A DNA stretch of 64,000 nucleotides. It comes from Halogranum rubrum (GTDB taxonomy: Archaea > Halobacteriota > Halobacteria > Halobacteriales > Haloferacaceae). Below the pieces are notes generated by a model, which saw only the letters and a list, made by a program, of their open reading frames with translations, did no database searches and had not been told where the DNA came from. The stretch spans positions 583,058 to 647,057 of the forward strand of contig NZ_FOTC01000001.1 in the NCBI RefSeq assembly GCF_900114455.1, given 5' to 3'. Positions 14,828 to 17,153 of the stretch are shown piece after piece. How positions within the stretch are numbered: the first letter of the stretch is position 1; each line of letters starts with the position of its first letter. A program made the translations under genes and the position numbers.

Positions 14828-15323
14828 CAGAAGCAAGCGACATGGCAGTAGTGAACGGTTCGTCCCCACGGCTCGTGAGGGGTCTAATTATGCTTGTATA
14901 TTACGGCGAAAGTACTATCCAGAATCCACCCTGAGCGTCAGGTCCGGGAAAACGCCCCGGTGAGAGGGCGTTCAGGTTCCGGAATGCCAACTACACCCCA
15001 CTTCCGCGGGTGTGCCGTTCGTGGAAGTCGAGTGCAGTACGGTGTTCGTTCTGAACTGGCCTATAGATAATGGCTACGTAGTGCTTCAGGTTGGTAGCCG
15101 AGGTGGAACGATGTCGCCATCAAACAGACGATTCACACGGCTACCGAATCTCTCTGAGTACCTGATTTAGCTGGAAAATAGGGTGCTAAGCCCCCCTTCC
15201 TCAAGGAGTGAACGGAACGAAGTGAAGTGAGCGAGTAGGGAGGGGATACAGCACCCGCACGAATTTCAAACACGCCAATCAGCACTATCAATATACCACA
15301 CTTCGTACCAATTGACACGTCGC
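14828..15323. other. Structured intergenic region upstream of tnpB
   Basis: No gene seen. The stretch is dense in hairpins: AACGCCC/GGGCGTT at 14951-14957 and 14966-14972, ACACCC/GGGTGT at 14993-14998 and 15008-15013, and the orphan right-end-like module at 15181-15256. This looks like the left part of the tnpB element, or of an older non-autonomous element, rather than host sequence. Confidence 0.45.
15181..15256 (+). repeat. Orphan copy of tnpB right-end (omega-RNA-like) module
   Basis: This 76-nt block is bounded by a 7-bp inverted repeat (GGGTGCT/AGCACCC). It contains the same ordered blocks as the tnpB 3' end at 16570-16625: AAGCCCC, then TCCTCAAGGA, a variable inner stem, then GAGTAGGG and GGGG. 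In the tnpB copy these blocks encode the protein C-terminus; here there is no reading frame. It may be a left-over element end, a MITE, or a stand-alone guide-RNA-like gene. Confidence 0.5.
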
Positions 15324-16610
15324 ATGATGTACAGCCCTCGCTTCCGCTTGTTCCCGAATACGGAGCAACGCGAAGCGATGGACTGGCAACGAAACACCGT
15401 GCGACAACTTTACAACCACGCACTCAACGAATTCAACCAGATACCTGGAGACGCAGGAACGCTCCGGCAACGCGTCTGGATGGTTAGAGACACGCTCCCC
15501 GCGCTCAAAGACTGGTGGCCAGCACTCAAACGGGTCTACTCAACGGTCTTGCAAAAAGCCGTTGAGCGCATCCGTGATAACATCCAGAACCTCAGGAAGC
15601 TCAAGGCCAAGGGCTACAATGTGGGGTCGTTGAACTGGAAGAAACCGCGTGAGTACCGGAGTTTCACGTACCGACAATCAGGCTTCGAACTCGACAAGAA
15701 GAGTGGCCCGAACGGACGCGGACTCCTAATCCTCAAGAAACTCAAAGGCGAAACCCGTGAGATACCGATTCGCCTTCACCGAGACCTTCCTGACCACGAA
15801 CAAATCAAAGAAGTCACGCTCAAGAAAGAACCCACTGGCGCGTGGTACGTCAGCTTCTGCATCGAGACCGACAAACCCGAGAGATCTGCCGTCGAAGATA
15901 TCGAACCCGGAGACTCCGTAGGTCTTGACCTCGGGGTTCTCAACTTCATCCATGACTCTAAGGGACGGTCGATAGGACGACTTGACTTGCCCAATGAACG
16001 AGAGCGGATCGAACGTGAGCAACGCTCGCTCTCCCGCAAAGAGTATCAGTCCAAGAATTGGGGGAAACAGCGTCGGAGGGTCGCGGAAGTCCACGCCCGG
16101 ATGTCGAATAAGAAGCGTGATTACAAGCACAAGCTCGCGCACTTCTACACGACAGAGTACGACGCCGTGTTTGTTGAGGACCTCAACGTCAAGGGAATGC
16201 TCGAATCCTCAGAGAACGCGCGGAACAAGGCCGAGGTGGGATGGCGCAACCTCATCACGATTTTCAAGCACCACGGCAAGAAAAACGGGTGTCACGTGGT
16301 TACTGTCAGACCTGAGAAGACGACGTTGGAGTGTGCGTCGTGTGGCACATCGGTGTACAAGCCGTTGTGGGTGCGTGAGCATTCATGTCCATCGTGTGGG
16401 TTCGAACTCGATAGAGATTGGAATGCGTCGTTGAACGTTCTCTCACGAGGACTACAACTAGGAGTGGTTCACTCCGAAGAAACGCCTGTGGAGACTGCGA
16501 CCGCTGTGTCTACTGACGGAGGCTCTCAAGCCGTCGTGGTGGATGCAAGTCGCGTCGTAGAAACAGGAAGCCCCGTCCTCAAGGAAGCAACGCGAAGCGT
16601 TGCTGAGTAG
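15324..16610 (+). CDS. tnpB: RNA-guided endonuclease TnpB (IS200/IS605 family)
   Basis: 428 residues from the first ATG at 15324; a TTG at 15312 is less likely. It has an N-terminal helical DNA/RNA-binding region, then the RuvC-like nuclease: Asp in GLDLGVLNF near residue 202, Glu in VFVEDLNVKGM near 284, and Asp in DRDWNASLNVL near 362. A CxxC...CxxC zinc ribbon (CASCG, CPSCG, about 337-358) lies between the last two. All catalytic residues are present, so the protein should be active as an omega-RNA-guided nickase/nuclease. The 3' coding end doubles as the structured right end of the element. Confidence 0.92.
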   Translation: MMYSPRFRLFPNTEQREAMDWQRNTVRQLYNHALNEFNQIPGDAGTLRQRVWMVRDTLPALKDWWPALKRVYSTVLQKAVERIRDNIQNLRKLKAKGYNVGSLNWKKPREYRSFTYRQSGFELDKKSGPNGRGLLILKKLKGETREIPIRLHRDLPDHEQIKEVTLKKEPTGAWYVSFCIETDKPERSAVEDIEPGDSVGLDLGVLNFIHDSKGRSIGRLDLPNERERIEREQRSLSRKEYQSKNWGKQRRRVAEVHARMSNKKRDYKHKLAHFYTTEYDAVFVEDLNVKGMLESSENARNKAEVGWRNLITIFKHHGKKNGCHVVTVRPEKTTLECASCGTSVYKPLWVREHSCPSCGFELDRDWNASLNVLSRGLQLGVVHSEETPVETATAVSTDGGSQAVVVDASRVVETGSPVLKEATRSVAE

Positions 16611-16625
16611 GGTGGGGTAGTTCAC
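16450..16625 (+). ncRNA. Predicted omega-RNA / sense-overlapping transcript of tnpB
   Basis: Inferred, not directly visible as a gene. TnpB proteins bind an RNA derived from the 3' end of their own gene and the element right end; in Halobacterium such sense-overlapping transcripts are known for IS1341-type elements. Here the end folds well: a perfect 7-bp hairpin GCAACGC-GAA-GCGTTGC at 16587-16603 nested in a longer pairing of CCCCGTCCTCA with TGAGTAGGGTGGGG. The guide would begin just after 16625. The 5' limit given is a guess. Confidence 0.4.
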
Positions 16626-17153
16626 CGCGGGGAAGACGTTGACACCGAGACAACCGATCTGTTGGGTAGTGATTTCAGACGACTGCTTGAAGCCCCATAC
16701 GTGTGGTTACTGTGCAAGACTATTTCCCTCTTCGATAACCACCGACGAAGCACAATCTCAATAACTGTATAAGTAACTCAAAACATCCATTATTTTGGAT
16801 TCTTTCCCAAAATAGTAGAAAATATTGGTCTGGTAGTAATGTAAGTAACAACTAGCCTACCGGTAGAAGAAGTACACAACAACGGTCTTTTTAGATTTGT
16901 ACAATTCTACCGTTGGCGGTGTGGTTTCGTTGAGTCACTACTTGGCATCGAATCTCGCCTTACCCCGCGTTTGAGAATCCACTGACGTCGTTCATCACCA
17001 GAACCGAGAGGTCTAGTCGGCGGTAAGCCGAGAGCCTCTGGTGACATCTGCAAGCACGAGTTGTCAAACGTAGGATTGAGTAGGGCGGTTCACAGATCCG
17101 TACCGAATCAGTGTTTCTCGCTCAATAAGACGTCCCTCTCTTGCTACTAGCTG
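16626..17153. other. AT-rich spacer after the tnpB element
   Basis: No gene recognised. It includes AT-rich DNA (about 16720-16920) and an inverted repeat TCACCAGA/TCTGGTGA at 16994-17001 and 17037-17044 whose loop contains CGGC/GCCG, giving a structured 51-nt block about 110 nt beyond the stop of the binding-protein gene on the minus strand. This could be a transcript end or another element end. Confidence 0.35.

Follow-up and report, generated by a model that had tools for sequence, protein, structure and literature searches.

The window analysed here is a 64-kb stretch of Halogranum rubrum DNA. It holds an intact tnpB gene with a strong imperfect palindrome upstream and a similar palindrome at the 3' end of the gene, and comparison with related copies places all three within one transposable element. 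The features discussed below are as follows.

15166-15170, plus strand: target or transposon-adjacent motif TTTAG (TTAG conserved) in the left flank, outside the element; from Natrinema gelatinilyticum copies and 43 left ends
15171-16625, plus strand: complete TnpB-only IS200/IS605 (IS1341-type) element; borders drawn from copies inserted at unrelated sites
15181-15256, plus strand: left-end imperfect palindrome, whole hairpin; fold z -3.5 and covariation over 43 left ends
15181-15187, plus strand: basal stem, 5' arm GGGTGCT; compensatory changes in 5/7 pairs
15188-15190, plus strand: AAG on the 5' side of the core hairpin, a candidate left guide (GL) for the TT of TTAG; AA at +18/+19
15193-15245, plus strand: core hairpin with internal loop CAAGGAG / GAGT, common to the right end; R2 match of 33.2 bits
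15250-15256, plus strand: basal stem, 3' arm AGCACCC; covariation of left ends
15286-15296, plus strand: TATA-like stretch downstream of the hairpin, predicted tnpB promoter; A+T peak in 22 dereplicated relatives
15324-16610, plus strand: tnpB, 428 aa, intact frame; Pfam OrfB_IS605 (E 8e-19), TNB domain (E 2e-16) and HTH_OrfB_IS605 (E 2e-5)
16568-16625, plus strand: right-end palindrome and TAGTTCAC, 3' end of the omega-RNA scaffold; R2 94.8 bits, AGTTCAC invariant in 20 right ends
16626-16645, plus strand: flank that the omega-RNA would carry as guide; 25% identity after TTCAC between copies, guide role from known TnpB biology (PMC10278001)

Similarity of the upstream palindrome to the tnpB 3' end

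An earlier note on this DNA had described 15181-15256 as an omega-RNA-like module sharing its order of blocks with the neighbouring tnpB 3' end. That order (AAG.CCCC, TCCTCAAGGA, inner stem, GAGTAGGG, GGGG) is indeed present in both places. Local alignment of the two gives a score of 29, while the best of 11,583 other 66-nt segments, taken from both strands of the window, scores 23 and none reaches 29; the likeness is well above chance within the window. The module's predicted fold has an energy of -31.3 kcal/mol, with z = -3.5 relative to shuffled sequences.

The note had also pointed to a covariance model of haloarchaeal right ends as a check. Such a model (R2) ranks the module as the second-best site in the 64 kb, at 33.2 bits (E 5e-6), with the right end itself on top at 94.8 bits. 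The module thus carries the core of an omega-RNA 3' hairpin, and the match is confined to that hairpin, covering positions 29-72 of the 80 in the model. A left-end model and the right-end model each detect the opposite end within the window. Rfam, run over the whole window at gathering thresholds, gave no match, and a DNA search of the genome with 15181-15256 and its surroundings (14880-15330) returned only short partial matches besides itself.

Conservation and borders of the element

Protein relatives of the TnpB were fetched with their flanks, and the hairpin was looked for by pattern search in 44 haloarchaeal tnpB loci (L013-L056). It stands approximately 55-110 bp upstream of the tnpB start in 40 of them, so that the module is not the orphan that had been supposed, and it is kept even in L045 and L046, whose TnpB proteins are only 46-48% identical to that of the window. 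Four loci gave no pattern match (L034, L047, L051 and L055). Two of these, L051 and L055, are fragments beginning inside the protein, and L047 has a variant hairpin when inspected by eye. In L034, a Halarchaeum rubridurum relative, the right end matches and no left-end hairpin is recognisable.

The borders were drawn by comparing 11 Natrinema gelatinilyticum copies at unrelated places. The 20 nt before TTAG are only 26-27% identical among these copies; TTAGCT is then common to them, as is the sequence that follows up to the TTCAC of the right end, after which identity falls to 25% and the flanks are unrelated. Across 43 left ends TTA is invariant and G is present in at least 90%, and AGTTCAC is invariant in 20 right ends. 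The copies are therefore inserted 3' of a fixed short target, with unrelated flanks on both sides and no terminal inverted repeats, as IS200/IS605 elements are. Another feature of that family, a subterminal hairpin at each end, is present too. By homology, the element in the window comprises 15171-16625, inserted after TTTAG, with its left junction between TTTAG and CGCGGGG. Its empty site would read TTTAGCGCGGGGAAGACG; a search for the joined flanks in 40 related genomes matched only the window's own flanks.

Hairpin structure and position in tnpA-bearing relatives

Over the 43 left ends, 95.2% of cells are paired and nine pairs have changed on both sides; compensated pairs occur in the basal, the core and the inner stem alike. 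Slid controls are 41-55% paired. On five covariation measures the observed values exceed all slid controls and are reached by none of 500 shuffles, although related sequences may exceed such shuffles without any structure; taking the slid controls together with the number of compensated pairs, a real hairpin is hard to avoid. The 7-bp inverted repeat seen earlier (GGGTGCT at 15181-15187, AGCACCC at 15250-15256) is exact. It had been described as a terminal inverted repeat; it is not the terminus of a separate element, but lies 10 bp inside the left border and forms the base of the hairpin, a covarying stem in which five of the seven pairs show compensatory changes. The basal stem is absent from the right end.

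In the core stem a wobble T-G pair is tolerated and is the commonest type, found in 32 of the 43 left ends. Conservation of the core loop (CAAGGAG/GAGTAGG) is almost as high in the left end as in the omega-RNA hairpin. Comparing the left and right stems of one element, by eye only, the stem bases differ freely while the loop motifs are common to both, which makes recognition by structure and loop likelier than recognition by stem sequence.

The same hairpin occurs at the same place, upstream of tnpA, in 14 of the 30 sampled tnpA loci of the family, and these loci have a matching right end after tnpB wherever the locus reaches far enough. Since it precedes tnpA in tnpA-tnpB elements and tnpB in TnpB-only elements, the hairpin marks the left end of the element regardless of which gene follows it. 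A conserved AAG has its AA at +16/+17, counted from the cleavage point, in every one of the 14 tnpA-bearing elements. Among TnpB-only elements this AA starts mostly at +18 (27 elements, including that of the window, where it occupies +18/+19) or at +20 (seven elements). In IS608, the guide bases that pair with the target TT occupy +16/+17 (PMC5934647), and the AAG, which is conserved at both ends, may pair with the target in the same way. We also considered a fully Watson-Crick guide, CTAA:TTAG. Variants with CCAA and GAGAA keep the TTAG target, which argues for AA:TT alone as the general pairing.

Probable function of the left end and the element family in this genome

Very probably, 15181-15256 is the subterminal imperfect palindrome at the left end (IPL) of the element at 15171-16625, which is TnpB-only and of IS200/IS605 type. 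Descriptions of palindromes near both termini of haloarchaeal IS605-type elements go back to 2011 (PMC3119063). In IS200/IS605 elements TnpA binds hairpins at both ends (PMC5934647; PMC10278001), and TnpB in turn uses the 3' hairpin within its omega-RNA (PMC10278001). Most likely, the left end works as a hairpin of single-stranded DNA to which a TnpA binds in trans. The top strand, when single-stranded, would fold into the hairpin; a Y1 HUH TnpA, supplied by tnpA-bearing relatives with the same type of end, would bind it together with the similar right-end hairpin (IPR) and could so mobilise the element in trans; and pairing between the AAG beside the core stem and the TT in the TTAG target would place cleavage between TTAG and C. 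The IPR is used, in addition, as the 3' hairpin in the omega-RNA of TnpB, and it is because of this double use that the left end looks omega-RNA-like.

Several observations count against the IPL reading. There is no tnpA within 15171-16625, as an autonomous member would have. As TnpB-only members are common in haloarchaea (PMC3119063) and tnpA-bearing relatives have the same ends, we have filed the element as a non-autonomous TnpB-only member. Furthermore, the parts of the IS608 description drawn on here (PMC5934647) include no basal stem below the putative guide, such as the window hairpin has. To these are added the probably inactive state of the only Y1 transposase found in this genome, described below, and the lack of an empty-site match in the 40 related genomes.

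The earlier note had proposed a second omega-RNA that the neighbouring TnpB could use in trans, its guide beginning at about 15257. The 33.2-bit match of the core hairpin to the right-end model speaks for this reading, which we nevertheless regard as highly improbable. The hairpin accompanies 40 of the 44 related tnpB genes and precedes tnpA in tnpA-tnpB elements. It lacks the surroundings of the right end, namely GAAACAGGAAG before the hairpin and TAGTTCAC after it, beside the guide. The 20 nt that follow it are internal to the element and common to copies at different sites (73% mean identity among the 11 Natrinema gelatinilyticum copies, against 25% after the right end), whereas the sequence after the right end varies with each site, as a guide would have to. 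The note's other suggestion, the end of a MITE, was correct in seeing the end of a mobile element and mistaken in making it a separate one: a MITE or PATE would be a non-coding element with two borders of its own, and this hairpin is the left end of the coding tnpB element itself. That the present element inserted into a separate MITE end, or into what was left of the right end of an older tnpB element, is almost certainly wrong; relics do exist nearby (17046-17093 keeps ATCTGCAAG and GAGTAGGGCGG-TTCAC), but the hairpin lies inside the element border and moves with the element to unrelated sites, and the copies share the hairpin and not the flank.

A role at the RNA level, with TnpB binding the hairpin in its leader or in a read-through decoy and thereby limiting its own level or activity, would fit the near-equal conservation of the core loop in the left end and the omega-RNA hairpin, as well as the tolerated T-G pair. 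Across 22 dereplicated relatives, however, A+T content shows a TATA-like peak between the hairpin and the gene, at -37 to -32 relative to the tnpB ATG. Haloarchaeal promoter geometry would then put the start of the tnpB mRNA no more than about 10 nt from the ATG. In Haloferax volcanii 72% of protein-coding transcripts are leaderless (PMC4983044). Taken together, these points predict that the tnpB mRNA starts after the hairpin, which would probably be excluded from such a short-leader transcript; the placement of the hairpin also tracks the element end and not the tnpB gene. We consider an RNA role very unlikely, and give as little credence to its read-through form, in which the ends of the element would compete for TnpB as RNA and for TnpA as DNA. 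Very unlikely, too, is that the hairpin serves chiefly to block transcription, or to insulate, at the left edge of the element, beside or instead of a transposase site. The left end of IS200 has a role of this kind and the window hairpin is a strong one upstream of a predicted promoter, but a barrier leaves its loop-sequence and stem-plan match to the right end unexplained.

Read as an IPL, the left end places the element as an ordinary example of a known transposon type in salt-loving archaea. Like IS608/ISDra2-type IS200/IS605 elements, it has a subterminal left-end hairpin with a related hairpin at the right end, inserts 3' of a short target (TTAG/TTTAG) and has candidate AA guide bases, at +18/+19 where its tnpA-bearing relatives have them at +16/+17. 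Unlike that type, it has no tnpA, and its hairpin is longer, with a covarying 6-7-bp basal stem around an internal loop that holds the candidate guide, which is a minor structural detail. From the haloarchaeal IS1341-type elements and PATEs (PMC3119063), which are TnpB-only, with mutually similar near-terminal palindromes and a 4-5-bp targeting sequence, and which likewise have terminal-only or core-deleted derivatives in this genome, we found no difference of kind. Its right end has the 3' hairpin of the OMEGA omega-RNA, or sotRNA, of haloarchaeal tnpB (PMC12558985); the left end shares the core stem-loop of that RNA and lacks its 5' scaffold, TTCAC end and variable guide. The comparison fixes where a haloarchaeal TnpB-only element begins and ends (15171-16625, with target TTTAG) and explains the apparent 'second omega-RNA' upstream of tnpB, as both ends are built on one hairpin plan. 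Scans for omega-RNA that rely on the hairpin only will call such left ends, and TTCAC with a variable guide is needed to discriminate.

The only Y1 transposase found in the genome (L063:1982-2398, minus strand; G000:C6:384808) is identical to the cognate type at 43 of 129 positions. It reads HLY in place of HVH at the HUH motif and YVEGP in place of YVENQ, so that the YxxNQ motif is lost. With both motifs damaged it is probably inactive, and possibly dead or domesticated; no matching end motif was found in its surroundings. The window element may therefore now be stranded until a TnpA arrives.

Searched against this genome, the left-end model gave four strong full-length matches. The window element is one; another has a second, distant tnpB (C6:288820), and the remaining two, at C6:398052 and C6:434133, are non-coding derivatives. 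The distant tnpB (L071 / L105; G000:C6:288820-290393), about 23-27% identical to that of the window, has the same left- and right-end hairpin plan, and its element ends in GTTGAC, not GTTCAC. The derivative at G000:C6:398052 onward (L064 from about 1553) is core-deleted, its left-end hairpin lying within a few bases of right-end sequence (GATACAGCG-GCGTCATCGAAACAGGAAGC ... GGGGTAGTTCAC), and resembles the PATEs described in Haloquadratum. The other (L066:1113-1610, around G000:C6:434133-434610) is a non-coding element of about 0.45 kb with both a left- and a right-end hairpin, a PATE. Within the window, 17046-17093 is the decayed right end of another tnpB element (ATCTGCAAG ... TTGAGTAGGGCGGTTCAC), with no obvious gene.
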